From NCBI GenBank assembly GCA_031761875.1, contig CP134492.1:3472001-3536000 (forward strand): a DNA stretch of 64,000 nt, in the 5' to 3' direction. This document shows, in pieces, positions 28,191-45,979 of this stretch (position 1 is the stretch's first letter; each line of letters begins with the position of its first letter). Position numbers and translations under genes: made by a program. A model generated the notes under the pieces. That model worked only from the letters and a program-made list of their open reading frames with translations, did no database searches and was not told the origin of the DNA. Origin of the DNA: Bacillaceae bacterium IKA-2. Its GTDB lineage: Bacteria; Bacillota; Bacilli; Bacillales; Anaerobacillaceae.

Positions 28191-29384
28191 TTATTTAGAT
28201 AATACGTCTTTAATTCGCTTAATTGCCCAATCTAAGTCTTCTTTAGAGATAACTAATGGTGGGGCAAAGCGGATTACATTTTCATGGGTTTCCTTACATA
28301 ACAAACCGACTTGCTTTAATTTTTCGCAGTAACTTCTTGCCGGAACACTTAGCTCAACACCGATAAACAACCCTCTACCACGTACTTCTTTGATAATTGG
28401 GTTATCTATTTCTTTGAGTTTTTCTTGAAAATAAGTTCCTAATTCAAGAGAACGGTCAGCAAGCTTCTCCTCGACGATTACATCTAGTGCCGCTGATGCA
28501 ACCGCACAGGCCAAAGGATTTCCTCCAAAAGTAGATCCATGTGAACCCGGTTCAAACACCCCAAGGATATCGCTATTGGCAGCCACGACCGAAATAGGCA
28601 TCACCCCGCCACCAAGCGCTTTTCCAAGAATGTACATGTCTGGTACAACGGCTTCCCAATCGCAGGCAAACATCTTCCCAGTTCTTGCTAGACCTGATTG
28701 GATTTCATCTGCTACAAATAAGACGTTCTCTTTTTTACAAAGCTCCAAGGCGGCTTTCAGGAAACCGGTTGGCGGAATGATAATCCCTGCTTCACCTTGA
28801 ATTGGTTCGGTTATAAATGCAGCTGTATTTGGAGTGATTGCCGCAGCTAATGCTTCTAAATCGCCATAAGGGATGATCTTGATACCCGGAAGCATCGGAC
28901 CAAATCCTCGTTTGTATTCTTCATTTGAAGAAAGAGAAACGGCCGTCATTGTTCGACCATGAAAGTTATCTTCACTGACAATAATCTCCGCTTGGTCTGT
29001 TGGCACACCTTTTACATCATAAGCCCAACGGCGAACAGCTTTTACTGCTGTTTCAACCGCTTCAGCACCGGTATTCATCGGCAGCAACATATTTTTTCCA
29101 GTTAATTTAGAGACTCTCTCATAAAAGTGCGCGAGCTGATCATTATGAAAGGCCCTTGATGTTAAGGTAATTCGATCTGCTTGGTCTTTAAGTGCTTGAA
29201 TAATTTTCGGATGGCAGTGCCCTTGATTTAATGCCGAATAAGCACTTAACATATCAATATATTTATTACCCTCTGGATCTTCTACCCAGACTCCTTTTGC
29301 TTTTGAGATGACAATTGGTAGCGGTTTATAGTTATTAGCTCCATATTTATCGGTTGTTTCTATAATTGAATTTGTTGCGTTCAT
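28191..29384 (-). CDS. rocD: Ornithine aminotransferase RocD
   Basis: A 397-residue class III PLP aminotransferase. It has [67 protein letters not shown], the PLP lysine in ILGKALGGG, and the substrate pocket [15 protein letters not shown]. It converts L-ornithine and 2-oxoglutarate to glutamate-5-semialdehyde and glutamate. ATG 29384 follows GGGGGAAACA; a GTG at 29414 would overlap rocA. It sits 17 bp behind rocA on the same strand, so the pair forms an operon driven by the sigma-54 promoter at 30992-31009. Confidence 0.93.
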
Positions 29385-29400
29385 ATTGTTTCCCCCTTTA

Positions 29401-30942
29401 TTAATATTGCTCACAAGTTAGTTTGCCTTGTGTGAATTGTAGTAGATAATCTGGTCCACCAGCTTTTGAATCCGTACCTGACATATTAAAGCCACCAAAT
29501 GGATGGTATCCAACGATCGCTCCTGTACAACCACGGTTAAAGTAAAGATTTCCGACATGGAAGTCTTCACGTGCTTTTTCGAGATGCGTACGGTTGTTTG
29601 TAATTACAGCACCCGTTAAGCCAAATTCTGTGTTATTAGCAACATCTAATGCATGATCAAAATCTTTCACTTTACAAAATGCAACGACGGGTCCAAAGAT
29701 TTCTTCTTTCATTAGTCTTGCATTCTCATCGACATCGGCAATAATTGTTGGTTGAATGAAGTAACCTTTTGAGTTATCGCCTTCACCACCTGTGACTAAA
29801 CGTCCTTCTTCTTTACCAATCTCAACATAACTCATGACTTTATCGAAAGCAGCTTGATCATTAACAGGTCCCATGCGAGTATCATTCACTGGTGCACCGA
29901 CTGTTAATTTTTTCGTTAGCGCAATTGCCTTAGCTAATACTTCATCATAGACATCCTCATGAATGACGGCTCTCGAACATGCCGAACATTTTTGTCCTGA
30001 AAATCCAAATGAAGATTGAACGATCGCTTCTGCTGCAAAGTCCGTATCGATGTTGTTATCAACAACAATTGTGTCTTTTCCACCCATTTCAGCGACCACA
30101 CGCTTTAACCAAATTTGGCCCGGTTGAACTTTCGCTGCGCGCTCATAAATACGAATACCAACCTCTTTAGAACCTGTAAAACTAATGAAGCGCGTTCTTG
30201 GATGATCAACTAAATAATCACCAACTTCTGCTCCACTTCCTGGGATAAAGTTAACAACACCCGCTGGCAGTCCTGCCTCTTCTAGCACTTCTAAAAACTT
30301 ATAGGCGATTACCGGTGTTGAACTTGCCGGCTTTAATAAAACTGTATTTCCTGCAACGAGTGATGCCGAAGTCATCCCTGCCATAATCGCAAACGCAAAG
30401 TTCCAAGGAGAAATAACGACACCTACACCTAATGGAATGTACGATAAGCGAGTATCTTCAATTTTACGACTTTCAATTGGATAACCTTTTTTCATTTCAA
30501 CCATTTGGCGACCGTAGTATTCTAGGAAATCGATTGCTTCAGCAGTATCAGCGTCTGCTTCGTTCCACGGTTTGCCAGCTTCATAGACAAGATACGCCGA
30601 AAATTCATGCTTGCGACGGCGAATAATCGCCGCTGCTTTAAATAAAATATCAGCACGTACGGCTGGATCCCATTTTTTCCACGTATTAAATGTCTTGTCC
30701 GCAACTTGCATTGCTTTTTCAGCTAACTCACGAGTTGCTTTAGAGACAATCCCAACATGTTGTTCTTTATTAGATGGATTTTCAGAAATGATTTTATTCT
30801 CAGTGGTAATTCTTTCTCCACCTATAACTAATGGATATTCTTTCCCTAGCTCTGCTTCTACTAATTTTAAAGCTGCCTCAAATTCTTGACGATTATTCTC
30901 TACTGAGAAGTCCGTAAACGGCTCGTGTTTATATGAAATCAT
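29401..30942 (-). CDS. rocA: 1-pyrroline-5-carboxylate dehydrogenase RocA
   Basis: A 513-residue NAD-dependent aldehyde dehydrogenase that oxidises glutamate-5-semialdehyde/P5C to glutamate. The N-terminus [12 protein letters not shown] is the RocA type. Catalytic Asn is in [10 protein letters not shown], catalytic Glu in [12 protein letters not shown], catalytic Cys in [14 protein letters not shown]. The ATG at 30942 has AAGGGAG nine bases upstream; ATG 30948 is too close to it. First gene of rocA-rocD. A sigma-54 promoter is at 30992-31009, about 40 bp upstream of the start. Confidence 0.94.
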
Positions 30943-30991
30943 TTTCATCTACTCCCTTATTAAAATAATTATGTTTCCCTACATTTTATAT

Positions 30992-31009
30992 ATGCAATTT
31001 AAATGCCAA
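30992..31009 (-). promoter_or_regulatory. rocA: Sigma-54 (-24/-12) promoter of rocA-rocD
   Basis: On the minus strand TTGGCATTTAAATTGCAT has the -24 GG and -12 GC separated by exactly ten bases, matching the SigL consensus TGGCACNNNNNTTGC. Transcription should start near 30982, about 40 bp before the ATG. This promoter lies inside one arm of an inverted repeat (TTTAAATGCCAAC / GTTGGCATTTAAA, 30998-31033). Confidence 0.82.
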
Positions 31010-31442
31010 CTATTTTCTTAGTTGGCATTTAAAGTTTTTTTGTGCAGAAACTGTCTAGTAATCTTGCCACCACTTAGTAAACTATCTTTCATTACACTTA
31101 TAATCAGAATAAAAGCAAAAAAATTTTAGAGGTTTCGCAATAATATTTTGCTTTTTTTCTAAAAATAAACTAAAAAAGCAAATTTTTTTTGCTTTTTTTC
31201 AAAACTAAGAAAAACCGCCGGGGGGGGGGATGTGGGTGCTCTCCGAAAAAATACCGTTGCAATGATTAATATCGTCTCTAGAAATAGAATTTTCGCATAA
31301 ATAAAATAAAATGAGTCACATTCCAGAGCCATACTTCGCTCTCAACTGAACTTATTCCCTGGTCCGATTTTGAGTTTTTGAGATTATTAGAGTTTATTTT
31401 TTTGATAAAATCATTGTTAATGACGAAGGGGACAAAACTTTT
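31010..31442. promoter_or_regulatory. Upstream activator region between rocA and the racemase gene
   Basis: No gene found in this stretch. Palindromes at 31137-31151 (GCAATAATATTTTGC) and 31178-31192 (GCAAATTTTTTTTGC), with a further GCAAAAAAATTTT at 31115, are probable sites for the sigma-54 activator, 130-190 bp from the rocA promoter. A run of ten G (31220-31229) follows, preceded by CCGCC. The remainder is AT-rich and unremarkable. Confidence 0.6.
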
Positions 31443-32513
31443 TCAATAATTTTTTTCTATCATTACATAAGGAGAAGTCATCAATATTAATAAAGACTTG
31501 TAATTCAGTGAGAAAGAAATTATACTTCCTACCTTTATCTCCTCTTGATACATTGTAACATCCACTATCAGATGATCACTGCTCGCTCCTAAAATAATAA
31601 TATCAGGGGAAACCGGAGTTAAACCTTCAATATATACATCCTGCTGACCTATTGCTAATATAGCCCTCTTGCGGATACCTAAATCTTGAAAGGTTGGCGT
31701 TTTACCAAATGCATTCTTTCCAATAATTCCTTTAGGAACGGATCCCTTTTCCTTTAACTCAATTATCTCTGCCTCCAAATGAAAAACATCCTCATAGCAA
31801 TCAAGAATTTTATTTCCATAGGCCGTTTCTTTACCTAGAAAAAGAGATTCCCCTAAACGTAATTGATTGATCCCTTGAGGAAGTCTACACTTTGGTAGCA
31901 GGTACAGACTGCTAGAGTTTCCACCCGAAACTATTTTCAACTCATACTTCAGCTTATCTTTTACAAGTTCCTTGAGATTAACAAGTTGAGATAAGTTATT
32001 AGGGGTAGGAATAACGCCACCATAACAAGTTAAATTTGTTCCTATTCCTTCCCATTGAATATGAGCAAGTTTTAGTATTTTTTGACCAAAAGAAATTAAC
32101 TCATTAGGAAGGATCCCTTCTCGTAAATCCCCTAAATCAACCATTAATATAATTTGATAAATCTTTTTTTGTTTCTTGGCTTCTTCATCTAACGCTTGTA
32201 TCGTTTCCCATTCAGATACTAGACTGCAATCAGTATAGAGAACCACTTCTTTCACCTCACGTATCGCCGGTAAACGTAATAACGTAGCAAATGATTGAGG
32301 AAACAAACGTTTTATCGATTTAATATTCTTTACTCTTGAATCGGCAAAGGAGGTATATCCTTTTTTATATAAACTGGTCACTATTTCCTGCTCAGCACAG
32401 ATCAGTTTCGTAACCGGAACCCATGTGACTCCTTGTTGCTTACATAATCCTTGAAGAACCGCTGCATTATGTAGTAACTTATTTTCACTCCAAATAACTC
32501 GAGGGTAACTCAT
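31443..32513 (-). CDS. Ornithine racemase-like PLP enzyme (alanine racemase fold)
   Basis: A 356-residue PLP barrel protein whose order follows clostridial ornithine racemase (Orr): VIWSENKLLHNAAVL, PLP lysine in WVPVTKLICA (Lys36), FADSRVKNIKSI, ILMVDLGDLREGILP, GIGTNLTCYGGVIPTPNN, IVSGGNSSSLYLLPK and LRLGESLFLGKETAYG. It should interconvert L- and D-ornithine; another basic amino acid is possible. The ATG is preceded by no SD. A perfect AGGAGG lies 65 bp upstream (32579-32584), and a TAG stop directly precedes the ATG. It lies between rocA-rocD and the opp genes, on the same strand, without its own recognisable promoter. Confidence 0.82.
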   Translation of the reverse strand: MSYPRVIWSENKLLHNAAVLQGLCKQQGVTWVPVTKLICAEQEIVTSLYKKGYTSFADSRVKNIKSIKRLFPQSFATLLRLPAIREVKEVVLYTDCSLVSEWETIQALDEEAKKQKKIYQIILMVDLGDLREGILPNELISFGQKILKLAHIQWEGIGTNLTCYGGVIPTPNNLSQLVNLKELVKDKLKYELKIVSGGNSSSLYLLPKCRLPQGINQLRLGESLFLGKETAYGNKILDCYEDVFHLEAEIIELKEKGSVPKGIIGKNAFGKTPTFQDLGIRKRAILAIGQQDVYIEGLTPVSPDIIILGASSDHLIVDVTMYQEEIKVGSIISFSLNYKSLLILMTSPYVMIEKNY

Positions 32514-32914
32514 CTAGTAAAATCTGACATTTTTTTGAAATGCACTCAATACAAACAAACGTTTTCTAATAACAAAAACCTCCTAATATCACTTTTATTG
32601 CATTGTAAAGTTTCTAGTAATCGTAATTAAGGACATAGCTGAAACTACTGTCCAGCTATTTAATTTCCATACTATTAAATTAAGGGAACAGAAAGCTTGA
32701 AACACACTTCCTACCCTCTCTCTGGAACATATTGAAACGAATGTACAGCTAATGTAGCAAAAATTTTGAAAAACACACGTATCACAAGGAATAAAAATTC
32801 AAGTTAATGTTCCGCTGCAGCAACATTTGTTAAGATAGCAGAACTAAGAGCTGTCGATACTAATCTCTATCCGTTTTGCATTTTTAATATTTGCCTTATT
32901 CCAGACTTTTTACG
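32514..32914. other. Gap of 401 bp between the racemase gene and oppC
   Basis: No gene found. Contains a minus-strand AGGAGG (32579-32584) with no standard start codon at the right distance, and two interleaved inverted repeats near 32627-32662 (GGACA/TGTCC and ATAGCTG/CAGCTAT) that could act as a weak transcript end for the opp operon. No -24/-12 promoter seen. Confidence 0.5.
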
Positions 32915-33823
32915 CTATTCCTTTTTTAACCGTGGATCTAGTATATCTCGTAAAGCATCCCCGAAAAGGTTGAAGCCTAATACAAATAACGCTAAAGCCA
33001 AGCCCGGAAATAAAATTATCCATGGAGCTTCTACAATATATGATCTTCCTGCACTCATTATAGAACCCCAACTAGGTGTTGGCGGTTGCACACCTAAACC
33101 AAGAAAACTTAATGATGCTTCAATAATGATTGCCTTTGGAACTTCCATTGTCGTCAATACGATGATTGGAGCGAGCGAGTTTGGTAATAGGTGCTTAAAG
33201 ATGATTCTCATGTCACTCATTCCTAATACTCTAGTAGCATCGATAAATTCCTGCTCTCTCAGAGTAAGGAATTGCGCTCTAACGATTCTTGTAAATCCAC
33301 CCCAACTTACCAGTGCAACAACAATAATTACCGTTGGAAGACTTGGACCTAATACAGCAACAAAAGCAATAGCCAAAATAACTGCAGGAAAAGACCAGGC
33401 GATATCTGTCAAACCTGTAATTATATGGTCAATGATGCCGCCATAATATCCCGCTAAAGCTCCTAACGTAATCCCAATGATCATTGTAATACCTACTGCA
33501 CCAAAACCAACTAATAATGAAACCTGAGCTCCATAAACAACCCTACTGAAAATATCTCTACCAAACTCATCTGTTCCAAAAAAGTTTTGCAAGCTAGGAG
33601 CTTTCAACATTTGAGGTAATTCCATTACAGCATATCCGTGAGTAGCGAAAAAAGGTGCAAAAATGGCGATAATAAGTGTAATGATTATGATTGAAATTCC
33701 AAAAACCGCTCCTTTGTTGGAAAGAATTTTTTTCCATACATTCGGTCCCCTATTAGTATCTCCGATTATTTCTGGAGCCATTATCTCTGTAGTTTGTTTA
33801 TATTGTAAATCATTGTTGCCCAT
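32915..33823 (-). CDS. oppC: Oligopeptide/dipeptide ABC transporter permease OppC/DppC
   Basis: A 302-residue membrane permease. It has a cytosolic N-terminus of about 40 residues, a FFGTDEFGRDIFSRVVYGAQVSLLVG motif (OppC/DppC hallmark), and the EAA-type loop ATRVLGMSDMRIIFKHLLPN, followed by ASLSFLGLGVQPPTPSWG. It pairs with OppB to form the channel. Last gene of the operon (D-F-A-B-C order); 20 bp after oppB. Confidence 0.9.
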   Translation of the reverse strand: MGNNDLQYKQTTEIMAPEIIGDTNRGPNVWKKILSNKGAVFGISIIIITLIIAIFAPFFATHGYAVMELPQMLKAPSLQNFFGTDEFGRDIFSRVVYGAQVSLLVGFGAVGITMIIGITLGALAGYYGGIIDHIITGLTDIAWSFPAVILAIAFVAVLGPSLPTVIIVVALVSWGGFTRIVRAQFLTLREQEFIDATRVLGMSDMRIIFKHLLPNSLAPIIVLTTMEVPKAIIIEASLSFLGLGVQPPTPSWGSIMSAGRSYIVEAPWIILFPGLALALFVLGFNLFGDALRDILDPRLKKE

Positions 33824-33843
33824 ATTAATTACCTCCTTCCTGA

Positions 33844-34761
33844 CTAGTACTTAATCCTTGGATCAACTACTGCATAGAGAACATCCGCTAAAAGGTTTGC
33901 GATCAACACGCATGCTCCAAGGACTAAAAGTGAACCTTGAATAACCGGAAAATCCCTTGCAAATATAGCATCTACCATAGTCCTACCAATTCCTGGGATA
34001 CTAAACACAGTCTCAATAATAACAGAACCTGAAAATATCATTCCGATTCTTAGACCTAATATAGTAATAAGCGGTATTAAGGCATTTCTTAATGCATGCT
34101 CATTGATAACGACCCGCTCCTTTAATCCTTTGGCCCTTGCCGTTCTTATATAATCCTGCCTAATAACCTCGAGCATACTCGACCGTGCCATCCTAGCTGT
34201 TATCGCCGCATCGGTTAATCCCATAGCAATTACGGGTAAGACCAAATGCATCCAAGTTCCATAACCAGAGATAGGGAACCATCCTAGACGATAGGAAAAA
34301 AAGTAGACTAGTAACAGTCCAAACCAAAAATTAGGCAAAGACATACCTATTAACGCCGCCGTCATCGCCCCATAATCTATAGCTGTATTTCTTTTAACAG
34401 CTGCAGCAATACCTAACGGAATAGAAATTACAAATGATAGAATCAATGCATAAATTCCTAACTCCAATGTAATCGGTAAACGTTCCATAATAATTTCACT
34501 AACAGGTCTTTTCTGTAAAATTGATATCCCAAGGTCCCCTCTTAATATATTACCCATAAATGTAAAATATTGAGATGTGCTTGATTTATCCAATCCTAGG
34601 CTTATACTAACTTTTTCATAAGCTTCTGGAGTAACATTTGGTCCTACTAGTAAGTGCACAGGGTCTCCCGGTGCTAGGTGAAGGATCAAAAATATGACAA
34701 TCGTCATTCCAATTAATACTGGGATCATCAATATCAATTTCTTTATAATATATTTCAGCAT
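33844..34761 (-). CDS. oppB: Oligopeptide/dipeptide ABC transporter permease OppB/DppB
   Basis: A 305-residue permease. It begins MLKYIIKKLILMIPVLIGMTIVIFLILHLAPGDP (OppB signature), with the EAA loop RTARAKGLKERVVINEHALRNALIPL and the C-terminal VVDPRIKY. About six membrane helices. Located between oppA (80 bp) and oppC (20 bp). Confidence 0.9.
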   Translation of the reverse strand: MLKYIIKKLILMIPVLIGMTIVIFLILHLAPGDPVHLLVGPNVTPEAYEKVSISLGLDKSSTSQYFTFMGNILRGDLGISILQKRPVSEIIMERLPITLELGIYALILSFVISIPLGIAAAVKRNTAIDYGAMTAALIGMSLPNFWFGLLLVYFFSYRLGWFPISGYGTWMHLVLPVIAMGLTDAAITARMARSSMLEVIRQDYIRTARAKGLKERVVINEHALRNALIPLITILGLRIGMIFSGSVIIETVFSIPGIGRTMVDAIFARDFPVIQGSLLVLGACVLIANLLADVLYAVVDPRIKY

Positions 34762-34841
34762 TTTTTCACCTCAATTTATTAGTATATTGTCCGCAGATTT
34801 ATTCAATCAGCGGACAATAACCAAACTATTATTCTTTTGTT

Positions 34842-36446
34842 TTACTCTAAATCTAGTTCTTGAAATTGAGTTTGCCAAGGATGAAATTTGAAGTTCATAA
34901 CATCCTTACGTACAGCGACACTTCTAGTTGGATGGTAAACAGGTGTCCAAACAGCTTGCTCAATAAGGTGCTTCTGCACTTCATGATAGCCAACTGCTCT
35001 TTCTTCCCATGATGATGCACTTCTTGCTGTAGCGATTAATTCATCAGTCTTATCATCAATCCATCTTGAATGATTAGGAAAAGGGAACTGGCTAGATTCC
35101 AAGAACCAATCAAGGATATCTGCATTTAGCCAGTTATATACTCTAAGGAAAAGCTCTTGTTCTCCCTCTCGAAGCATCGCCACATAACTTGAACTATCAT
35201 ATAACTGAATCTCCACTTCGATTCCTACTTCACCAAGTTGATTTTGAATTACTTGAGCAAATTGCGTCATCTCGCTATTATTTTCTGCTGATAATTTCAA
35301 TGTTAAGCCATCTCCATAACCCGCTTCCTCAAGTAATTGGATGGCTTTTTCTTTACTGTACTCATATCCGGCTGCCTCACTACCTTGATAGTATTCATCT
35401 GTTAGCATTGGAGGTAAATATCCATGAGCGACAGTCGCATTATCTCTAAATATATATTCAACAATTTCTTCTTTGTTTATCGCATGATTGATCGCACGAC
35501 GTACCCTTACATCAGTAAAAGGTTCTTTATCCGTTGCGTAGGCAAGATAACCTAATCTAGGAGCGTCACCGTCATGGATATCAACTGTGTCACTATCTCG
35601 TAGTCTCTCGATAATTGTTGCTGATGTATCTCTTAGTATATGAACATTACCTGCTTCAATCTCCATAATTCTTGACGTTTCTTCTGGGATTGTCCTCATG
35701 ACAATTTCGTCAATGCTTGCGTCAACTGCCCAGTCTGGTCCCCATTCATAATCTGGATTTATTTCAAGAACTATTTTATCTCCCCTTACCCATTCCTTAA
35801 ACTTATATGGTCCTGTACCGATTACATAATTGCTGCCATATTCATCACCATATTCTTCATAGGCTTCTTGGCTTCCAATTCCCGCTACTGTAGCAGAAAT
35901 GACAAACAAAAGATTTGGAAAAGCATGTTCCAATACGAGATCTACCGTATATTCGTCAATAACATTGACTTCTTTTATTGGACTAAAATCACCGGCTGCT
36001 GGTGATCCTACATCTGGATCAAGTATTTGATCGAACGTCCATTTAACATCATCTGCAGTGAAAGGCTTTCCGTCATGGAAAGTTACTCCCTCCTTCAAAT
36101 AAAAAGTCCATGTAAGTGAATCGTCGGATATTTTCCATTCCTTTGCCAAACCAGGTTGATAGGTAAAATCATAGTCTCTGCTCACCAACCTATCCAACAT
36201 CAATATTAGTGCATCAGAATAATTAGCTGTTCTTATATGATCTAGTGACTCATAGTCCATTTCATAACCGATGACCAAACTCTTAAATTCTGCTTCCTCA
36301 TCAACCTCAGTTCCTGGCTGATTAGCTTCTTTTCCATCATTATCAACTTCTTGGTCAACTTCTTTTGTAGAGCAGGCAGCCAAACCAAGAGCCAGTAGAC
36401 TAACGATAAGTAACATGACTAATCTTCTCAATAATTTTCTATCCAT
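34842..36446 (-). CDS. oppA: Oligopeptide/dipeptide-binding lipoprotein OppA/DppA
   Basis: A 534-residue SBP family 5 (cluster C) protein. It has the lipoprotein signal (MDRKLLRRLVMLLIVSLLAL, lipobox LAAC at about 25), an acidic linker, and family core pieces: WTFYLKEGVTFHDGKPFTADDVKWTFDQI, YVIGTGPYKFKEW and VRRAINHAINKEEIVEYIF. It binds peptides outside the cell. The preferred peptide cannot be read from the sequence, but its location with an M19 dipeptidase suggests short peptides, possibly with D-residues. Confidence 0.9.
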   Translation of the reverse strand: MDRKLLRRLVMLLIVSLLALGLAACSTKEVDQEVDNDGKEANQPGTEVDEEAEFKSLVIGYEMDYESLDHIRTANYSDALILMLDRLVSRDYDFTYQPGLAKEWKISDDSLTWTFYLKEGVTFHDGKPFTADDVKWTFDQILDPDVGSPAAGDFSPIKEVNVIDEYTVDLVLEHAFPNLLFVISATVAGIGSQEAYEEYGDEYGSNYVIGTGPYKFKEWVRGDKIVLEINPDYEWGPDWAVDASIDEIVMRTIPEETSRIMEIEAGNVHILRDTSATIIERLRDSDTVDIHDGDAPRLGYLAYATDKEPFTDVRVRRAINHAINKEEIVEYIFRDNATVAHGYLPPMLTDEYYQGSEAAGYEYSKEKAIQLLEEAGYGDGLTLKLSAENNSEMTQFAQVIQNQLGEVGIEVEIQLYDSSSYVAMLREGEQELFLRVYNWLNADILDWFLESSQFPFPNHSRWIDDKTDELIATARSASSWEERAVGYHEVQKHLIEQAVWTPVYHPTRSVAVRKDVMNFKFHPWQTQFQELDLE

Positions 36447-36491
36447 TAACTTGTACCCCCCTATTATTTTTATTCTGATTAAAATAATATG

Positions 36492-37460: not shown

Positions 37461-37475
37461 TTTATTGTCCTCCAA

Positions 37476-38441
37476 TTATTCATATTCCCAGCATCGGACT
37501 AAACTCTTACCCACTTTAATAAGAGGAGGTTCTTCCGCTTGACACCTACTCGTTGCCAGGTGGCAACGAGTATAAAATTGACAACCCACTTTTATTTGGC
37601 CTGGCATTGGAACTGATCCTTCGATAGTGAAAAGTTTTGTTCTTGGCCCTTCCGTCTTTGGTATCGATTTTAATAGTCCGGCAGTATACGGGTGCTTGGG
37701 ATCTTTAAATAATGTTTTTACATCTGTATATTCCTGCACTCGCCCACCATACATAACGAGTACATTATCCGCTACTTCTGCTACAACTCCCATATTATGT
37801 GTGATCAATAACATCGCCGTACCTATGTTTTCTTTTAATTCTTTAATTAACTGCAATATTTGTGCTTGGATGGTGACGTCCAATGCTGTAGTAGGTTCGT
37901 CAGCAATTAGTAGATCTGGACTACAGGATAGCGCCATCGCAATCATAACCCTTTGACGCATACCCCCGCTAAGTTGATGAGGGTACTGCTTCAGTCTTTT
38001 TTCTGGTAGCGGGATTTTTACCTGTTTTAGCATTTCGAAAGCTACTTCCATTGCCACTTTCTTGGATAGTTTTTTATGAAGAATGATCGATTCAGATAGC
38101 TGTTTCCCTATTGTAAATACAGGATTAAGAGAGGTCATTGGCTCTTGAAAGATCATCGCGATCCTGTTACCCCGTATTTTTCTCATTTCTTCATTACTAA
38201 TCTTGAGCAGATCTTTACCTTTAAAAATAATTTGACCGTCTACTATTTTTCCAGGTGGTTCAGGTATCAATCTCATAATCGACAACGAGGTTACACTTTT
38301 GCCTGATCCAGATTCTCCGACTATGCAAAGCGTTTCACCTTTTGACACGTTGAAACTAACACTTTTCACTGCAGGTATTTCTATATCTCCGCTATAAAAG
38401 CATGTTGTTAATTCCTTTACTTCTAGTAAATAGTCCTTCAT
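37476..38441 (-). CDS. oppD: Oligopeptide ABC transporter ATPase OppD
   Basis: A 321-residue ABC ATPase. Walker A GESGSGKSVTSLSIMR, Q-loop AMIFQEPMTSLNPVF, signature LSGGMRQRVMIAMAL, Walker B LLIADEPTTALDVTIQAQI, switch His in ITHNMG. The C-terminal cysteines in CQFYTRCHLATSRCQ match OppD/DppD. The ATG at 38441 follows GGGGGT; TTG 38462 is within that site. It begins the opp part of the operon, 278 bp after the dipeptidase stop. I saw no promoter in that gap, so read-through is likely. Confidence 0.9.
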   Translation of the reverse strand: MKDYLLEVKELTTCFYSGDIEIPAVKSVSFNVSKGETLCIVGESGSGKSVTSLSIMRLIPEPPGKIVDGQIIFKGKDLLKISNEEMRKIRGNRIAMIFQEPMTSLNPVFTIGKQLSESIILHKKLSKKVAMEVAFEMLKQVKIPLPEKRLKQYPHQLSGGMRQRVMIAMALSCSPDLLIADEPTTALDVTIQAQILQLIKELKENIGTAMLLITHNMGVVAEVADNVLVMYGGRVQEYTDVKTLFKDPKHPYTAGLLKSIPKTEGPRTKLFTIEGSVPMPGQIKVGCQFYTRCHLATSRCQAEEPPLIKVGKSLVRCWEYE

Positions 38442-38718
38442 CGTAATACCCCCACTTATCAAATGTATCTAGACTGAAAATAAGCTAGTTAACAAAATTT
38501 ATTATCGATTGACAAAGTAAAGAATGTTTAACTGAAAATTTCCTGATTTCATAATTCAATTTAAGTCATTTAATCTTAATAGAACTTTATTAATTACTAA
38601 AATTTCTTAATTTTTATTCGATTTTAAAACTTTAGAATTTTCAGTTTTTATAACTTAAAACTATACCTCTTGCGAGAAATAATCAAGGGTTATGAATTGT
38701 ACTCACCTATTTGATTAG

Positions 38719-39678
38719 CTACTTAGCCTCAGATAAAGTTATCGAATTTCGTTTTGTCGGTCTATGATTAAGGAAATTTTGATAGGCAAATCCTCTTACT
38801 TCGTCATCTTTAAAATGCTTTAATAATTCATTAATTAAATTCGGGTACATTGATGCATCCTTTAATTTTTTCAAGGACGTTTCAGTTCCATCAAAATCAG
38901 AACCAAAACAAATGTGATTCAATCCGCCTATTGAGCAAAAGTGGTCAATGTGTTTGATCAAATCCTTTATGGTAGCTACCCCATTTTCTTTCACAAATGG
39001 TGGGTAAAATAAGTGACTCACAAAGCCACCGTTTTTAAAAAGTATTTCAGCTTGTTGATCCGTTAAATTACGGGGATGGTCACATATTGATCTAGAGTTA
39101 GAATGACTGGCAATTGGGTATTCCGCTATCTCCATCACATCCCAAAAGGCATTTTCACTTAGATGAGATACATCGGTCCACACTTGATGATCATTATTTA
39201 AATGAACAACTTCCTTACCAAACTCCGTTAATCCGGCCCCTCTTCGTTCTCCGACGCCATCTGCACAGAGATTAGCGTTATTCCAAGTTAATCCCATAGC
39301 CTTAATTCCTAATTTGTATAACAATCTTAATTTTGTTAGATCATTATGAAATACATCTGCGCCTTCTAACGTTATCATAGCACCAATTTCATTTGGTCTA
39401 AGTTGTTCGATTTCATCCCAAGATATAATCTGTTTCATTTCGGGATGCTTTGCTAAGATTTCATTGTTAAAAATATCAATCTGCTCTAGAGCCACTTGAA
39501 ATTTATGTTCTGTCTTGACCTGTGGTGGAACAAATATAGCAAAGCACTGTATAAAAACACCTCCCGCTTGTAGGCGCCTAAAATTTGATTTAAGGTTAAT
39601 TGAGTCACTGAACCTACTTTTTTCAGGACTCCTCCATAGTTTGAGCAGAACATCACAGTGTGTATCTATTACCTTCAT
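38719..39678 (-). CDS. Membrane dipeptidase family (M19) zinc dipeptidase
   Basis: A 319-residue M19 peptidase (renal dipeptidase family). Metal and active-site motifs: VIDTHCDVLLKLW (HxD), ITLEGADVFHND (bridging Glu), MGLTWNNANLCADG, WTDVSHLSENAFWDV (His), IASHSNSRSICDHPRNLTD (His-Ser-Asn) and CFGSDFDG (Asp). M19 enzymes cleave dipeptides and many accept a D-amino acid at the C-terminal position. No signal peptide, so it works in the cytosol. I chose ATG 39678 (AAAGGAGG eight bases upstream); the longer frame from 39759 adds 27 residues not seen in the family. A sigma-54 promoter lies at 39879-39897. Confidence 0.88.
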   Translation of the reverse strand: MKVIDTHCDVLLKLWRSPEKSRFSDSINLKSNFRRLQAGGVFIQCFAIFVPPQVKTEHKFQVALEQIDIFNNEILAKHPEMKQIISWDEIEQLRPNEIGAMITLEGADVFHNDLTKLRLLYKLGIKAMGLTWNNANLCADGVGERRGAGLTEFGKEVVHLNNDHQVWTDVSHLSENAFWDVMEIAEYPIASHSNSRSICDHPRNLTDQQAEILFKNGGFVSHLFYPPFVKENGVATIKDLIKHIDHFCSIGGLNHICFGSDFDGTETSLKKLKDASMYPNLINELLKHFKDDEVRGFAYQNFLNHRPTKRNSITLSEAK

Positions 39679-39878
39679 AGTTTGTACCTCCTTTACATAT
39701 CCGCTATTATATACCCTATAATCATATAACCTATCATTTAAAGTTCCAATCCAATTCAAATTTATTGTCTCTTAACAAAATTCCATCCTAACACTGCATA
39801 TATATCAAGATCGATAATTAAACTCGGTAGGTTCATCGTACGCCTATTATAACCTCTTACATACTTACACCCTATTTT

Positions 39879-39897
39879 ATGCAATTTCTATGCCAAG
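39879..39897 (-). promoter_or_regulatory. Sigma-54 promoter of the dipeptidase-opp operon
   Basis: On the minus strand CTTGGCATAGAAATTGCAT has GG and GC ten bases apart (TTGGCAT / TTGCAT), matching the SigL consensus. It lies about 200 bp upstream of the dipeptidase start, giving a long leader. Confidence 0.8.
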
Positions 39898-40372
39898 CTT
39901 AGTCACTACTGTTCACAACTTCCCTATCAAATTAAACGCCATAATATCATTACATTTGCCCATTTTTTTTGCTTAAGCAAAATTATTTTGCCTTTTTTTC
40001 TACTGAATTAATAGTTTCATAGTTCACAAAAATAATACAAGTACATCGTTCATCCACTACACACAACGGATAGAGCTAGTTGGATGATAGTTACACTTTG
40101 ATGACATTAAAGTTGGCCCTAATACAATTTAAATTTACTAATTTAATTTCCCCGAAAAAATAAATAGAATTTATATTGTCAATACATTTACACTATTCAA
40201 AAAATTCGTTGTAAAATAGAGCACTCGTGAGTATAATGTGTTATAACAATAAATTACTAACGTTGTATTATTAACAGCAGTCCTCCCTAGGACAAAAGTC
40301 AACGAAGAGAAAGAGTTCTATTAAATTGTAGTTATTCAACGACTTCTAACTAGACAAGGAGAGTATAAGTTT
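39898..40372. promoter_or_regulatory. Divergent regulatory region with activator palindromes and a sigma-A promoter
   Basis: No gene found. TTTTGCTTAAGCAAAA (39967-39982, perfect) overlaps GCAAAATTATTTTGC (39977-39991, perfect), giving three TTTTGC/GCAAAA half-sites 80-110 bp from the -24/-12 promoter of the dipeptidase. On the plus strand TTGTAA, 17 bases, TATAAT (40209-40237) is a good sigma-A promoter for the gene at 40373, with a leader of about 130 bases. The rest is AT-rich. Confidence 0.65.
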
Positions 40373-41098
40373 ATGGATGATCAAAAACCTATTATTGGTA
40401 TAAGTTTAGCCTATTATGGTGTCGAGTCACTGTTTGAAAGAAAATATCATGTAAATGATGCATATATTGAAGCTATAAAAAAATCTGGTGGAATTCCTTT
40501 ATTAATTCCTATTATGGAAAAAGAAGATCTTTTACAAGTTTTTAATCAAATTTCAGGCTTGTTATTAACAGGGGGAGGTGGGCTTCTTCCCCATATAAAA
40601 AAAAGGAGTCGCTTGCCATCATTGTATGAACAAAACCCTATACGTCACCAATTTGATAAACTTCTTGCTAATTTAGCCTTAGATAAAAACTTGCCGGTCA
40701 TGGGTGTTTGTCGTGGACTTCAAGTGATAAATGAGTGTTTAGGTGGGACTTTACACGAAAACTTAAATGAAGTGACGAATGAAGACCATAGACAAGAAAC
40801 ACTTGGCGATGTACCAAGTCATACGGTTACCCTTGAAGAGAATAGTATTATGTTTTCATGCTTTAATAAAAGTAAGATTAAGGTAAATAGTTTCCATAAT
40901 CAAGCAGTCAAAGAAGCTGGTCATAGATTAAAAGTAACCGCGAAAAGTAAAGACGGAATAATAGAGGCCGTAGAGGGAATTGAAAACTCTTTTATCTTAG
41001 GATTGCAATTTCACCCTGAAGAACAAATGATTGATGATCCATCATTTGCTAAACTATATCAAAAGTTTATTCAAGCTGCAAAAACGACAAATGTTTGA
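40373..41098 (+). CDS. Class I glutamine amidotransferase-like / gamma-glutamyl-GABA hydrolase family protein
   Basis: A 241-residue peptidase C26 protein of the PuuD type. The nucleophile cysteine is in MGVCRGLQVINECLGG (about residue 111), and the catalytic His-x-Glu is in LGLQFHPEEQM. LLTGGGGLLPH near residue 66 and NSFHNQAVKEAG fit the family. Members hydrolyse gamma-glutamyl bonds, such as gamma-glutamyl-GABA or other gamma-glutamyl amides. The true substrate here is unknown; peptide side-branches with gamma-Glu links are a plausible target in this cluster. The ATG has AAGGAGAG upstream. Confidence 0.82.
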   Translation: MDDQKPIIGISLAYYGVESLFERKYHVNDAYIEAIKKSGGIPLLIPIMEKEDLLQVFNQISGLLLTGGGGLLPHIKKRSRLPSLYEQNPIRHQFDKLLANLALDKNLPVMGVCRGLQVINECLGGTLHENLNEVTNEDHRQETLGDVPSHTVTLEENSIMFSCFNKSKIKVNSFHNQAVKEAGHRLKVTAKSKDGIIEAVEGIENSFILGLQFHPEEQMIDDPSFAKLYQKFIQAAKTTNV

Positions 41099-41392: not shown

Positions 41393-42817
41393 ATGATCCG
41401 AAAACAATCACTTCAGTCACTACTACAAATCATCAAAATCTATGAAACTTTAATTAATGAAATCGATGTTGGAGTTCATATTATTGATCAACAAGGAAAA
41501 ACAATTCTGTATAATAATAAAATGATGGAAATTGAATCGATGACCAAAGAAGATTTTCTTAACAAGGATTTTTTAGATGTGTTTATGTTTGAAGAAGGCC
41601 AAGAAAGCACTTTACTTAATGCCTTACATCAACATAAAGAAGTGAAAAATAAAAGACAAACTTACTTTAATAATAAAAGCAAAGAAATCACAACAATTAA
41701 CAATACATTTCCAATTTACCATCTAGATAAAGTCATTGGAGCCATTGAAATTGCAAAAGATGTTACGGTTATTGAACGATTAATTAGAAAAAATATGGAA
41801 CATAAAGGAAATACACGTTATTCCTTCGATAGCATCATTGGAGTAAGTCCTGCAATAAAAGAAGTGATTGAAAACACAAAAAGGGCTACTCGTACATCCT
41901 CATCAGTTCTCATTATTGGGGAAACCGGAACCGGTAAAGAATTATTTGTCCAAAGTATCCATAATGGAAGCGAACGATCATCCGCTCCTTTTATATCTCA
42001 AAATTGTGCCGCAATGCCTGATAGTCTCATAGAAAGTCTATTATTTGGCACTAAAAAAGGGGCATTTACAGGGGCTATCGATCATCCAGGCTTATTTGAA
42101 CAAGCAGAAGGTGGAACACTTCTACTTGATGAAATAAATTCGTTAAGCCCAATGTTACAAGCAAAACTATTAAGGGCAATTCAGGAAAAATCAATTAGGC
42201 GAATAGGCGATACTATTGATAGAAAAATTGATGTACGAATAATTTCGACAATTAATGAGGATCCTATTGAAGCTATTGCCAATCAACGATTAAGAAAGGA
42301 TTTATTTTACCGTCTTAGTGTCGTTTCACTATTTATTCCGCCATTGCGTGAGCGTAAAGAAGACATTTTACCATTGATAGATCACTTCATTATGAAATAT
42401 AGTTATATGTTTAATATGAATATAAACGGTGTTTCAGACGGGGTTCTTCTTCAATTTAACAACTATGACTGGCCAGGAAATATTAGAGAGTTAGAACACG
42501 TCATTGAAGGTGCTCTCAATTTAATGATTGATGAAGATACTATTGAAGTCTTTCATTTACCGTTTAACCTTAGAAATAAACCCCAAAGTTCCATACCAAA
42601 TGAACAATCAGTTGTGGGTGTTCACCATGTAGCTGTTAAAGACAAGCATTTACCACTTCGTCATCTTAAGGATTATTTACTAGAAGCTGAAGAATATTAT
42701 ATTAACAAGGCCTTAGAAAGAAATAAATACCATCAAACAAATACCGCAAAAGAGTTGGGCCTTAGTAGACAAAGTCTGCAATATCGAATAAAACGCCTAA
42801 ATAACGAAAATCTTTAG
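41393..42817 (+). CDS. Sigma-54-dependent transcriptional activator, RocR type
   Basis: A 474-residue bacterial enhancer-binding protein. An N-terminal PAS-like sensor (INEIDVGVHIIDQQGKTILYNNKMMEIE, residues 22-49) is followed by the AAA+ domain: Walker A GETGTGKE (176-183), the sigma-54-contact loop GAFTGA (223-228) and Walker B GGTLLLDE (240-247). A C-terminal Fis-type HTH (NTAKELGLSRQSLQYRIKRL) ends it. The architecture is that of B. subtilis RocR, which activates rocABC and rocDEF in response to ornithine or citrulline. Position and the three sigma-54 promoters nearby make it the likely regulator of this cluster. Ribosome binding site AAGGGTG. Confidence 0.87.
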   Translation: MIRKQSLQSLLQIIKIYETLINEIDVGVHIIDQQGKTILYNNKMMEIESMTKEDFLNKDFLDVFMFEEGQESTLLNALHQHKEVKNKRQTYFNNKSKEITTINNTFPIYHLDKVIGAIEIAKDVTVIERLIRKNMEHKGNTRYSFDSIIGVSPAIKEVIENTKRATRTSSSVLIIGETGTGKELFVQSIHNGSERSSAPFISQNCAAMPDSLIESLLFGTKKGAFTGAIDHPGLFEQAEGGTLLLDEINSLSPMLQAKLLRAIQEKSIRRIGDTIDRKIDVRIISTINEDPIEAIANQRLRKDLFYRLSVVSLFIPPLRERKEDILPLIDHFIMKYSYMFNMNINGVSDGVLLQFNNYDWPGNIRELEHVIEGALNLMIDEDTIEVFHLPFNLRNKPQSSIPNEQSVVGVHHVAVKDKHLPLRHLKDYLLEAEEYYINKALERNKYHQTNTAKELGLSRQSLQYRIKRLNNENL

Positions 42818-42850
42818 TTATGTATATTGCCTCTCGTTCAAGCGTAATAA

Positions 42851-42897
42851 AAAAGATGAAACCTTGGTTCTAAATTTATTCCAAGGTTTCATCTTTT
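42851..42897. terminator. Terminator shared with the 3' end of the GNAT gene
   Basis: AAAAGATGAAACCTTGG (42851-42867) pairs with CCAAGGTTTCATCTTTT (42881-42897). It ends the RocR-type gene, and one arm is inside the coding sequence of the convergent GNAT gene (stop codon in the loop). Confidence 0.85.
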
Positions 42898-43604
42898 GAT
42901 TTTCCGAAGACAATCTTCTTCTCCAGTTTATTTTCTATCAAATTAAAGCCAGCAAATCCGTTTTCTAATAATTGATGTTGTTGTTCAAAATCATTACTTG
43001 ATACAGAAATTATTGTATCTTCTCTGATTTTCATTTGAGTATGTAAATCTTTTAAAAGAATATATCTAATTCCACCACTATATTTTTTCTTTAATTTAAC
43101 AATATGCATTCCCTGAATAAGTTTATCTTTTAGACTAGGAAAATTGTTGGGACTTACGGTACAACATAGATAACGATGGTTAATACTTGATTGAATAAAT
43201 TCTTTCATAAGTATGTTTCCAAGTATTTTTTGTAAACCATTCCCTCTATACTTTGGTATAACACAGGTTATTTCTAGGTGAATAACCTTCATTTGTTCAT
43301 CTTTTGTTAAATCTAAATCACTACCTAAATTTTCCATATTATCCCCTGGATAAAGAAGTGCTCGAAACGCTATTAAACAATTTTTAACGAAGACACCAAT
43401 GATATGACCCATGTCGTTAAAAATGTGCCTTATTTCTTCTTCCGTTAAAGGCTCTAATGATTCTTTTACTTGCTCATTCTCCAAAACAATACTTTGAACC
43501 TGAAGAATTTCAGATATATGCCTTTGATTAAGCTTTTTAACTTGAAATTTTTTGCTTATGCCGTTTGTTTGGCACACTAGAGTTCCTTCATAGATTTTAT
43601 CCAT
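42876..43604 (-). CDS. GNAT family N-acyltransferase paired with the racemase
   Basis: A protein of about 242 residues with a GNAT fold in the centre: IGVFVKNCLIAFRALLYPG, IHLEITCVIPKYRGNGLQKILGNILMKEF (acyl-CoA loop RGNGLQ) and CCTVSPNNFPSLKDKLIQGM. The N- and C-terminal flanks are longer than in a minimal GNAT. ATG 43604 is 4 bp after the racemase stop, with its AAAGGAG inside that gene, so the pair is translationally coupled. In Geobacillus an N-succinylamino acid racemase is paired with a GNAT succinyltransferase in a D-to-L amino acid route; by analogy this could acylate the racemase's substrate. The acyl donor and acceptor are unknown. Confidence 0.75.
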   Translation of the reverse strand: MDKIYEGTLVCQTNGISKKFQVKKLNQRHISEILQVQSIVLENEQVKESLEPLTEEEIRHIFNDMGHIIGVFVKNCLIAFRALLYPGDNMENLGSDLDLTKDEQMKVIHLEITCVIPKYRGNGLQKILGNILMKEFIQSSINHRYLCCTVSPNNFPSLKDKLIQGMHIVKLKKKYSGGIRYILLKDLHTQMKIREDTIISVSSNDFEQQHQLLENGFAGFNLIENKLEKKIVFGKSKDETLE

Positions 43605-43608
43605 TTTC

Positions 43609-44724
43609 TTATTCTCCTTTGAATACCTCATGCTTTTCTGTTAATTCTTTTAATACATTTTCATCAACATCAATCCCCAAACCTGGGCGATTATTTAATC
43701 GGATATAAGGTACTTCATAAGCTAAGTTACCTACATCTTTGCCAAACTTTAAAGGCCCTGTTAGCTCTACACTAGTAATATTTTTCTTTGAAAAAGCTAC
43801 ATGAAATCCCGCTGCTGAACCGATTGAAGATTCGACCATGGAGCCAATTTGACAACCTATTCCTGCCATTTCTGCTTGATGTACAAGTTTTGTTGCTGGA
43901 TAGATTCCACCACACTTCATTAATTTGATATTAATTTTATCAGCGGCTCGTTTTATAATAATTTCTCGCATCTCTCTATTTCCTTTTAACCCCTCATCAA
44001 CCATGACAGGTATATTGGTTTTTTGTTTTACTTCTAATAAAGAATCAATATCATCAGCTAGTACAGGTTGTTCAATCCAATCAATTTCACACTCTTGAAT
44101 TCTATTTAATACAAATATTGTGTCAGCACTGTTTACCCAACCTTGATTCGCATCAACACGAATAATTATATCTTTGCCTACTTTTTCTCGTACCGCTTTT
44201 ATTCGTTCGATATCTTTCCATTTATCAGTCCCTACTTTCATTTTTAACAAACGGTATCCCTCTTCAACTGCTCGAGCAGCTTCAATAGCCATTTCTTCTG
44301 GCTCAAGAATACTTAAAACATGAGCAAGCGGAAACTTCTCATGATACTTACCCCCTAATAAATTATAAACAGGTTGATTGACTACTTTACCAATAATATC
44401 AAAACAGGCAATGTCAATGGCTGCTTTAGCAGTTGTTGACCCATATATTTTCCGATTCATTACATCATGGATCTTTTCAATATTGAATGGATTCTGTCCC
44501 AAAATTGCTGGGATAAGTATTCCTTTTAGAACTTGATAAGTACTTGCCTGCGTTTCTCCCGTTACATGTTCATCTGCAACACCTTCACCATAACCAACAA
44601 TTCCCTGATCTGTTTCCATTCTGACTATAATAGATGGCATAGATGTATACGTATCATAACTAATGATAAATGGATCTTTTAATGGAAGGTGGATCTTGTA
44701 AATGCCGACAGCAATAATTTTCAT
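43609..44724 (-). CDS. Enolase-superfamily racemase/epimerase (MLE subgroup)
   Basis: A 371-residue mandelate-racemase/muconate-lactonizing-type enzyme. All catalytic residues for a two-base racemase are present: Lys161-x-Lys163 (LLKMKVG), metal ligands Asp191 (VDANQGW), Glu218 (WIEQP) and Asp243 (VDEG), and Lys267 (INIKLMK). The barrel-end segment GSMVESSIGSAAG is not diagnostic. Candidate substrates are N-acyl amino acids, dipeptides (as in L-Ala-D/L-Glu epimerase) or proline/hydroxyproline-type compounds. It sits between rocF (150 bp upstream) and the GNAT gene, so it probably belongs to the rocF transcript. ATG 44724 has AAAGGAG. Confidence 0.8.
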   Translation of the reverse strand: MKIIAVGIYKIHLPLKDPFIISYDTYTSMPSIIVRMETDQGIVGYGEGVADEHVTGETQASTYQVLKGILIPAILGQNPFNIEKIHDVMNRKIYGSTTAKAAIDIACFDIIGKVVNQPVYNLLGGKYHEKFPLAHVLSILEPEEMAIEAARAVEEGYRLLKMKVGTDKWKDIERIKAVREKVGKDIIIRVDANQGWVNSADTIFVLNRIQECEIDWIEQPVLADDIDSLLEVKQKTNIPVMVDEGLKGNREMREIIIKRAADKINIKLMKCGGIYPATKLVHQAEMAGIGCQIGSMVESSIGSAAGFHVAFSKKNITSVELTGPLKFGKDVGNLAYEVPYIRLNNRPGLGIDVDENVLKELTEKHEVFKGE

Positions 44725-44763
44725 AACATTTCTCCTTTTACAATTAGTTAATACTTAGTAACC

Positions 44764-44795
44764 CTCCCCCCCGAGGCTACGGAGGATTTTTTCGT
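44764..44795. other. C-rich tract with hairpin between rocF and the racemase
   Basis: CCCTCCCCCCC then GAGGCTACGGAGG followed by ATTTTTT. CCTCC and GGAGG can pair, and a T-run follows on the plus strand, where no gene is upstream. A tract of seven C is of interest because another intergenic G-run occurs at 31220-31229. Confidence 0.4.
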
Positions 44796-44874
44796 ATTTA
44801 TTTTTAAAAAATAATAGGAGTCATTAATACGACTGCTAGAAGAGTTATTAATTTTCGTTGCAGAAAAATAAGAA

Positions 44875-45783
44875 CTAAAGTAACCTTTTCCCTAATAAAG
44901 AAGTAACTAAAGCAACGGCCACATCTGCTGTCCGATTTTTATCATCTAGAATAGGGTTTATTTCAACAAATTCAGCTGATGTGATTATTTTTGCTTCAAA
45001 TAACATTTCTAGAGCTAAATGGCTTTCTCGATAAGAAACTCCACCCATCACAGGCGTTCCTACTCCTGGAGCATCTAACGGATCAATAGCGTCTAAATCA
45101 AGACTTAAGTGAACACCATCAGTTCGATTAGCTAAATACTCGATCGTTTCTTCGATGACTTTTGTCATACCTATACGATCAATTTCATGCATTGTATAGA
45201 CCTTTATTCCTTTCTCCTTTATTAAATCTTTTTCTCCATCATCTATTGATCTGGCACCAATAATCACGATATTTTCAGGCTTAATTTTAGGACAGTAGCC
45301 ACCAATGTTTATCAGATCATTATGACCAATACCGAGATTTACAGATAATGGCATGCCATGAATATTTCCTGACGGTGATGTTTCAGCAGTATTTAAATCA
45401 GCATGAGCATCGTACCAAATCACTCCTAGATTTTTATACGATTTAGCAAGTCCTGCAATAGAACCGATACTAATACTATGATCACCTCCTAAAACAAGTG
45501 GAAAACTTCCTTCACTATGTACACGATTCACTTCTTTTTGCAGCTCTTCACTTACTCTAATAACTTCCCTAAAATTTTTCATGGTTTCATGGCTAGTTTC
45601 GCCTTTCACACTTGAACGATCAATATTTATATCTCCATAATCGTTAACACTAATGCCCATACCCTCCATTTGTTCTATTAGTCCTGCATACCTCATAGCA
45701 CTTGGGCCCATGTCTACCCCTCGACGTACTTGACCTAAATCCATTGGAACCCCTATAACGGATACTTCCTTTACTTTTTTCAT
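44875..45783 (-). CDS. rocF: Arginase RocF
   Basis: A 302-residue arginase that hydrolyses L-arginine to L-ornithine and urea. Manganese ligands: His in GGDHSISIGS (99-105), DAHADLN (125-131), and DLDAIDP (about residue 230). The N-terminus VIGVPMDLGQVRRGVDMGPSAMRYAGL and PVMGGVSYRESHLA are typical of bacillar RocF. ATG 45783 has AAGGAG. First gene of the rocF-racemase-GNAT operon; a sigma-54 promoter is at 45820-45838. Confidence 0.94.
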   Translation of the reverse strand: MKKVKEVSVIGVPMDLGQVRRGVDMGPSAMRYAGLIEQMEGMGISVNDYGDINIDRSSVKGETSHETMKNFREVIRVSEELQKEVNRVHSEGSFPLVLGGDHSISIGSIAGLAKSYKNLGVIWYDAHADLNTAETSPSGNIHGMPLSVNLGIGHNDLINIGGYCPKIKPENIVIIGARSIDDGEKDLIKEKGIKVYTMHEIDRIGMTKVIEETIEYLANRTDGVHLSLDLDAIDPLDAPGVGTPVMGGVSYRESHLALEMLFEAKIITSAEFVEINPILDDKNRTADVAVALVTSLLGKRLL

Positions 45784-45819
45784 ACTCTACCAACTCCTTT
45801 TTGTTCTATCACATTAATA

Positions 45820-45838
45820 ATGCAATTATTGTGCCAAG
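45820..45838 (-). promoter_or_regulatory. rocF: Sigma-54 promoter of rocF
   Basis: On the minus strand CTTGGCACAATAATTGCAT matches the -24/-12 consensus closely (TTGGCAC, GG and GC ten bases apart, TTGCAT). It lies 37-55 bp upstream of the rocF start. This is the best of the three sigma-54 promoters. Confidence 0.88.
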
Positions 45839-45979
45839 TCTTCATCTGCGAACGAACTGTATAATCAACTGCATAACGCATATATTATCACAATATATTA
45901 AATTAAAACAGTTTAAAAATTGCTTTTAGCAAAAAATTTAGAAAATTCACGCAAAATTATTTTACTTTAATAAGTGAGT
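45839..45979. promoter_or_regulatory. Upstream activator region of rocF
   Basis: Contains GCAAAATTATTTTAC (45951-45965), almost the same as the palindrome near 39977, and TTGCTTTTAGCAAAA (45920-45934). Both are 80-140 bp from the -24/-12 promoter. Probable sites for the RocR-type activator. Confidence 0.6.

Follow-up and report, generated by a model that had tools for sequence, protein, structure and literature searches.

A RocR/sigma-54-type arginine and ornithine island with putative racemase modules in Bacillaceae bacterium IKA-2

We analyzed a window of 64 kb (contig CP134492.1, positions 3,472,001 to 3,536,000) of the single-contig 4.42 Mb genome of Bacillaceae bacterium IKA-2 (G000). 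It carries an island of about 17.6 kb in which genes for arginine and ornithine catabolism lie together with a peptide importer and two putative racemases. On balance we find it probable that an arginine-ornithine regulon under RocR/sigma-54 control was enlarged here by the capture of two modules, one for D-basic amino acids (the enolase-superfamily racemase gene enol and a GNAT acyltransferase gene) and one composed of an Opp importer, a dipeptidase and an ornithine racemase. The parts are known and their combination appears to be new among the genomes examined; judged from the gene content, the genes probably rescue D-arginine and D-ornithine.

All genes named in an earlier note on this DNA were found in place, using open reading frames (ORFs), NCBIfam and Pfam profiles and, for GNAT, a predicted structure. 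The minus-strand order is rocF, enol and GNAT, then M19, oppD, oppF, oppA, oppB, oppC, orr, rocA and rocD, with the C26 and activator genes on the plus strand between GNAT and M19:

28191 to 29414, minus strand: rocD, ornithine aminotransferase (NF003145, 772.9 bits, cut-off 656)
29401 to 30948, minus strand: rocA, L-glutamate gamma-semialdehyde dehydrogenase (NF002852 and TIGR01237 above cut-off)
31443 to 32513, minus strand: orr, homologue of pyridoxal phosphate (PLP)-type ornithine racemase (NF040742, 446.4 bits, cut-off 480)
32915 to 38462, minus strand: oppC-oppB-oppA-oppF-oppD, peptide-type ABC importer (ORFs; oppA matches PF00496 with 317 bits)
38719 to 39678, minus strand: M19 dipeptidase, 319 aa from ATG (PF01244, 350 bits)
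40373 to 41098, plus strand: C26 cysteine hydrolase, gamma-glutamyl hydrolase/PuuD-type (PF07722, 191 bits)
41393 to 42817, plus strand: RocR-type sigma-54 activator (PF00158, PF25601, PF02954, PAS_9)
42876 to 43631, minus strand: GNAT acyltransferase, proposed D-Arg/Lys N-succinyltransferase (AlphaFold and Foldseek)
43609 to 44724, minus strand: enol, enolase-superfamily racemase, MR_MLE (Pfam above cut-off; close to the 2P88 protein)
44875 to 45783, minus strand: rocF, arginase (TIGR01229, 358.8 bits, cut-off 227.6)

The profile scan of Opp covered oppA, and the permeases and ATPases were named from sequence. For M19 the ATG at 39678, preceded by an AGGAGG-type site, was preferred over the listed TTG at 39759. 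The ornithine racemase was the weakest call, as a homologue is present but scores under the family cut-off.

The three -24/-12 promoters claimed earlier were confirmed by pattern match:

45821 to 45836, minus strand: promoter of rocF(-enol-GNAT), TGGCACAATAATTGCA
39880 to 39895, minus strand: promoter of the M19-opp(-orr) unit, TGGCATAGAAATTGCA
30993 to 31008, minus strand: promoter of rocA-rocD, TGGCATTTAAATTGCA

These are the only matches to TGGCA-N6-TTGC[AT] in the whole 64 kb. Genome-wide, TGGCA-N6-TTGCA was found 17 times compared to four times for the pattern read backwards, while a spacing one base longer gave five matches against four for the control. Three of the 17 sites are the island promoters, located within 15 kb, and 7 of the 14 sites outside the window lie less than 3 kb from another sigma-54 activator gene. 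When 10 of 12 consensus bases were taken as sufficient, three further places in the window were picked up, none of them preceding an island gene. By consensus scoring no sigma-54 site was found before C26, the activator gene, oppD, enol or rocD, and the best match before orr had 8 of 12 consensus bases. We infer that a sigma-54 factor gene is present in the genome.

The earlier statement that three promoters drive three transcripts could not be upheld. Since C26 and the regulator gene are on the plus strand without an upstream sigma-54 site, there should be more than three transcripts. The orr and enol genes are separated from the preceding oppC and rocF by gaps of 402 and 150 bp, respectively, and co-transcription across these gaps is therefore presumed. 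The rocF-enol gap has a stable fold (z -2.5); no site resembling a terminator was found there on the strand of these genes. At the rocA promoter, a 15-bp perfect inverted repeat (30998 to 31033; RNA fold z -6.1) encloses the -24 box and, on the plus strand, reads as a terminator-like hairpin with a T run.

Enhancer-like palindromes of the form GCAAA-N5-TTTGC, exact or with one mismatch, were found upstream of all three promoters:

31137 to 31151, no strand assigned: palindrome with one mismatch (pattern match)
31178 to 31192, no strand assigned: exact palindrome, the same form as before sister-species rocA (L168, L172, L174, L176)
39977 to 39991, no strand assigned: palindrome GCAAAATAATTTTGC, upstream of the M19 promoter
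45951 to 45965, no strand assigned: palindrome with one mismatch (pattern match)

With at most one mismatch the window has nine matches, five of them intergenic. Four of these intergenic matches fall in the 250 bp preceding one of the three promoters; these upstream stretches account for 711 of the 10,362 intergenic positions. This window count is not blind, because the pattern was first drawn from the window promoters and then fixed on sister promoters. There is a single exact copy of GCAAAANNNTTTTGC in the genome, the one before M19, and the reversed control likewise has one, so that position and not count is the evidence. The relatives offer a fairer test, though some of their promoters had been seen beforehand. 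A palindrome (at most one mismatch) was found within 250 bp of 16 of the 20 sigma-54 sites before rocA, rocD or rocF. For comparison, 161 stretches that precede other genes of these loci were examined, and 8 of them had one. The 20 sites are from loci of other genomes, apart from one from elsewhere in G000; rocG and other sites not before rocA, rocD or rocF were left out.

The regulator has an AAA+ sigma-54 domain (PF00158), a PAS_9 domain and a Fis-type helix-turn-helix (HTH; PF02954) above the Pfam cut-off. In a tree of 31 rows it belongs to a clade of eight with a support of 100/100, and the other seven members adjoin rocA, rocD, rocG or rocF with sigma-54 sites. The clade was unchanged in a 28-row tree that included four more activators lacking roc neighbours (L169, L173, L177, L232) and dropped the most distant activators of G000; B. 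subtilis RocR is in neither tree. Among 397 genomes of the order, the closest regulators are those of G148 (79%) and G006 (77%). Five genomes of the same genus (G001, G002, G003, G005, G006) have a different RocR-type activator (61-63%) beside rocA-rocD-putB-rocF, which forms a compact sigma-54 unit (putB by Pfam in L168). PrdR, the best NCBIfam name for the activator (325 bits of a 795-bit cut-off), was rejected from the neighbours of the relatives and the tree. Promoters, palindromes and regulator tree together lend good support to the RocR/sigma-54 control suggested in the earlier note, and such regulation of the island is likely.

The enol protein is identical in 243 of 366 residues (66%, 567 bits) to the chain of 2P88, 2P8B and 2P8C, which we take to be the B. 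cereus protein with measured N-succinyl-Arg/Lys racemase activity. In a passage of PMC4372640 that cites Song 2007, a muconate-lactonizing-type protein of B. cereus ATCC 14579 is predicted by docking to be an N-succinyl arginine racemase, and BC0371 has an entry in PMC9912610 as "Mandelate racemase/muconate lactonizing enzyme family protein". Residues K161/K163, D191, E218, D243 and K267 of enol are the same in 2P88 and in all five aligned sequences, where their numbers are lower by one. They are presumably the catalytic residues of the enolase superfamily, namely the KxK motif, three acidic metal ligands and a second catalytic lysine. The NCBIfam matches of enol (muconate cycloisomerase, cis-3-hydroxy-L-proline dehydratase, L-Ala-D/L-Glu epimerase and others) were all under cut-off. 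A dipeptide epimerase identity was disfavoured, with 253 bits to the nearest dipeptide epimerase against 567 bits to 2P88.

The GNAT protein (251 aa) had no Pfam or NCBIfam match. Its AlphaFold model (predicted local distance difference test, pLDDT, 86.9) matched GNAT structures in Foldseek, the best being 1tiq (E 3.5e-10), and the acyl-CoA-loop motif Y128-R129-G130 with L133-Q134 is invariant across 11 sequences. The enol and GNAT genes overlap at 43609 to 43631, and their pairing is conserved. A contig scan found 162 racemase relatives; the analysis covered the best 80 and not the 82 weaker ones, with neighbour hits below 80 bits dropped. Among these best 80 loci GNAT was found in 75, directly downstream in 74. 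The usual further partners are the regulator gene reg428 (62 loci), an NhaC antiporter gene (61) and an M20 gene (39); a sigma-54 activator was found in two loci (63% in L143, 37% in L074), rocG in two and rocD in one.

Coupling to roc genes recurs in other loci. Peribacillus acanthi (L143) has an activator (63%), a sigma-54 site, rocG, NhaC, enol and GNAT, and a locus of G034 (L050) has the same gene row and identities. In Cytobacillus purgationiresistens (L135) rocD, rocG, M20, NhaC, enol and GNAT are in a row, with the contig edge just upstream. G328 has an activator (69%), a sigma-54 site, rocG and then GNAT (46%), with no racemase beside GNAT.

For the HTH-type reg428 (427 aa; L046, 14430 to 15713) the HTH matches were weak and confined to the C-terminal part, and no Pfam match exceeded the cut-off. 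At 1e-10 it was matched in 4 of 12 genomes (G078, G033, G075 and, at 29%, G328) and not in G000, G001-G006 or G034. Absence of reg428 would be expected if RocR had taken over the module.

With respect to peptide import, the solved relatives of oppA include dipeptide-binding proteins. The nearest solved relatives of M19 are 3neh and 3lu2 (Lmo2462), one of which is reported to hold an L,D-dipeptide mimic. The H-x-D, E, H, H and D positions of M19, presumably metal ligands, are invariant in three aligned sequences. An Opp system was also found near the racemase in L121, and in L072 with M19 and without oppF and GNAT, while G001, of the same genus, has Opp with a distant enolase-family fragment (28%), GNAT, M20 and an M55 D-aminopeptidase. 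Genes for peptide import and for D-amino-acid conversion thus lie side by side in more than one place.

NF040742 describes an Orr that is a clostridial ornithine racemase by origin, and the island Orr matched it over the full length. The G006 homologue, which is 59% identical to that of the window and directly follows an M20 (RocB-like) gene, scored 451 bits and four other homologues 347-411, compared to 446 for the window. No solved relative of Orr was found by sequence at 1e-5. In L056, L060, L063 and L065, Orr-like genes (37-45% to that of the window) adjoin DUF1611 genes, which are 59-72% identical to the L056 copy (Pfam-tested); one such pair is in G000 at about 2.956 Mb. Orr-like and DUF1611 proteins are possibly a further pair for D-amino-acid conversion. 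In L061 and L064 the Orr-like gene lies directly after a gene of about 620 aa and before ABC-transporter-like genes. This setting resembles siderophore synthesis, perhaps D-ornithine siderophore clusters.

In the model we propose, the regulator at 41393 would bind the GCAAA-N5-TTTGC palindromes and fire the three -24/-12 promoters. For the rocF-enol-GNAT unit, GNAT would succinylate D-arginine (or D-lysine), enol would racemise the resulting N-succinyl amino acid, L-arginine would be freed by a desuccinylase from elsewhere in the genome, and arginase would convert this to L-ornithine. For the M19-opp-orr unit, peptides would be imported and then cleaved by the dipeptidase, and Orr would convert D-ornithine to L-ornithine. 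The rocA-rocD unit would take L-ornithine through glutamate semialdehyde to glutamate. Of this model, the sequence itself shows the genes, promoters and palindromes, the relationship of the regulator and the conserved pairing of enol and GNAT with its common partners, whereas the enzyme substrates, the limits of the operons, binding by the regulator, the inducer and the deacylation step are inferred. The route from peptides with D- or basic residues to glutamate put forward in the earlier note thus gains from the 66% identity of enol to 2P88 and from GNAT being downstream in 74 of 80 loci, but the desuccinylase was not found in the island.

The island is like the Bacillus RocR/SigL regulon (rocABC, rocDEF, rocG), as described in passages of PMC4348106 and PMC4428206, with respect to arginase, ornithine aminotransferase, semialdehyde dehydrogenase, the -24/-12 promoters and a PAS-AAA-Fis activator. 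It differs by adding Opp, M19, C26, orr, enol and GNAT, and by having no rocB and no rocC/rocE-type permease among its ORFs. The presumed B. cereus N-succinyl-Arg/Lys racemase (2P88) resembles enol over the full length, while enol of the island is placed behind rocF and a sigma-54 promoter. Work by Sakai and colleagues from 2006 is said to have described an NSAR-GNAT-M20 pathway for the irreversible conversion of D- to L-amino acids. The island resembles it in that the racemase is directly followed by an acyltransferase, and differs in that a deacylase is not in the island and basic amino acids are the proposed substrates. Compared to clostridial Orr, the island homologue is below the curated cut-off and, on inspection, has no D-ornithine aminomutase among the island ORFs. 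A literature search found no paper joining "RocR" and "ornithine racemase".

Several observations weigh against an enlarged regulon with captured modules. The gene set as a whole, for which conservation in relatives had been named as decisive, was found in no other examined genome. GNAT had no match in any of six same-genus genomes (three of them 62-90% complete), and Orr had a match in one of the six. At the thresholds used, GNAT was found in 9 and Orr in 14 of 101 genomes, and both in three (G000, G027, G083), on the same contig in G000 only. G001-G006 lack reg428 and GNAT alike, and the absence of reg428 may therefore be a genus trait. With respect to regulation, some RocR-type activators have no roc neighbours (L169, L173, L175, L177, L230, L232), and no palindrome with at most one mismatch was found before L143 rocG, L167 rocA (77% regulator) or L223 rocF (79% regulator), the latter two having the activators most like that of the window. 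The rocG promoter of L226 has one such palindrome. A sigma-54 site is lacking before enol, that before orr is only the 8 of 12 match, and both genes follow a gap (150 and 402 bp). For Orr, the score below the curated cut-off and the varied settings of its homologues, beside DUF1611 in four loci and in L061/L064, leave the direction of the reaction and the substrate uncertain. The roles given to M19, C26 and Opp are predicted from family names.

The deacylation step belongs with these points. Arginase would act only after hydrolysis of N-succinyl-L-arginine, so that a desuccinylase is needed. None of the 11 M20 genes of the genome is in the island, and an orthologue of the M20 of the racemase module was not found; the nearest own M20 was set aside as deacylase at 31% identity. 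The module's M20 had no solved relative at 1e-40. Three RocB-sized M20 proteins encoded elsewhere in G000 (32, 32 and 42% to the protein from G006) are candidate deacylases. Formation of N-succinyl-L-arginine by the arginine succinyltransferase (AST) route was rejected, as AstB was not found in the genome in a search that, in a control with 14 genomes, gave matches in E. coli and Caulobacter. Gamma-glutamyl amides, which resemble succinyl amides, are cleaved by the C26 enzymes whose function is known, and one may guess that C26 is the missing N-succinyl-amide hydrolase.

The lack of conservation of the full gene set is also in line with an ordinary roc regulon joined to a generic peptide scavenger giving L-arginine, for which stereochemistry would be irrelevant and orr and enol-GNAT would be passengers. 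In favour of this, the rocF, rocA and rocD genes with their activator and sigma-54 sites are of the standard kind, and the Opp and M19 families are broad. We nevertheless find it doubtful, as two unrelated racemases lie within 17.6 kb and enol-GNAT is again linked to roc genes in L143 and L135, as is GNAT in G328. A bolder form of the model goes the other way and sees a stereoinversion regulon, in which one RocR/sigma-54 switch would govern import and cleavage of peptides with D-residues and two racemisation routes (N-succinyl enolase-type for D-arginine, PLP-type for D-ornithine) meeting at RocD, with RocR having replaced a dedicated regulator and C26 being the N-succinyl-amide hydrolase. All of this together we hold to be unlikely.

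Other explanations concern single modules. Because all NCBIfam matches of enol are under cut-off and the dipeptide epimerases 3jva and 1jpm are its next solved relatives, enol and GNAT might use another substrate (N-acyl forms of other D-amino acids, or dipeptides), the link to arginine being merely regulatory. The 66% identity over 366 residues to 2P88, the 567 against 253 bits and the place of enol behind rocF make this very improbable in our view. Orr might also run from L- to D-ornithine to supply a building block for siderophore or cell wall and not serve catabolism, as the presumed siderophore setting of the L061/L064 homologues would suggest. Its neighbours in the island are rocA-rocD and an importer, however, and its closest relative (G006) follows the RocB-like M20 gene, and we give a biosynthetic Orr only a small chance. 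An enlarged arginine-ornithine regulon with captured modules is thus the reading we prefer. If true, it would provide a physiological setting for the N-succinyl-Arg/Lys racemase family and make D-arginine and D-ornithine ordinary food of the arginine regulon. It would also suggest a regulator swap from a dedicated regulator to RocR/sigma-54, and the RocR-type activators of some Bacillales would be predicted to respond to D-basic amino acids or peptides containing them.

The roc genes of G000 are scattered. In addition to rocF and rocA-rocD of the island, further copies were found at 1.11 Mb, where rocA-putB lies with a second RocR-type activator and a transporter that by eye resembles PutP, and at 2.97 Mb, where rocA-rocD has no preceding sigma-54 site. 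At the DNA level the island rocA and the copy beside putB at 1.117 Mb share 98.5% identity, while the island rocD shares 98.6% with the copy at 2.972 Mb, where the adjoining rocA reaches just 78.9%. The identity switches at the border between rocA and rocD (28191 to 30948) and drops outside, which looks like gene conversion from two different paralogues. The leuS gene (47843 to 50260) is close to the island, and in G006 and G005 (L170, L178) another RocR-type activator and a sigma-54 putB lie beside leuS; the leuS neighbourhood may be a shared site for roc-type genes.

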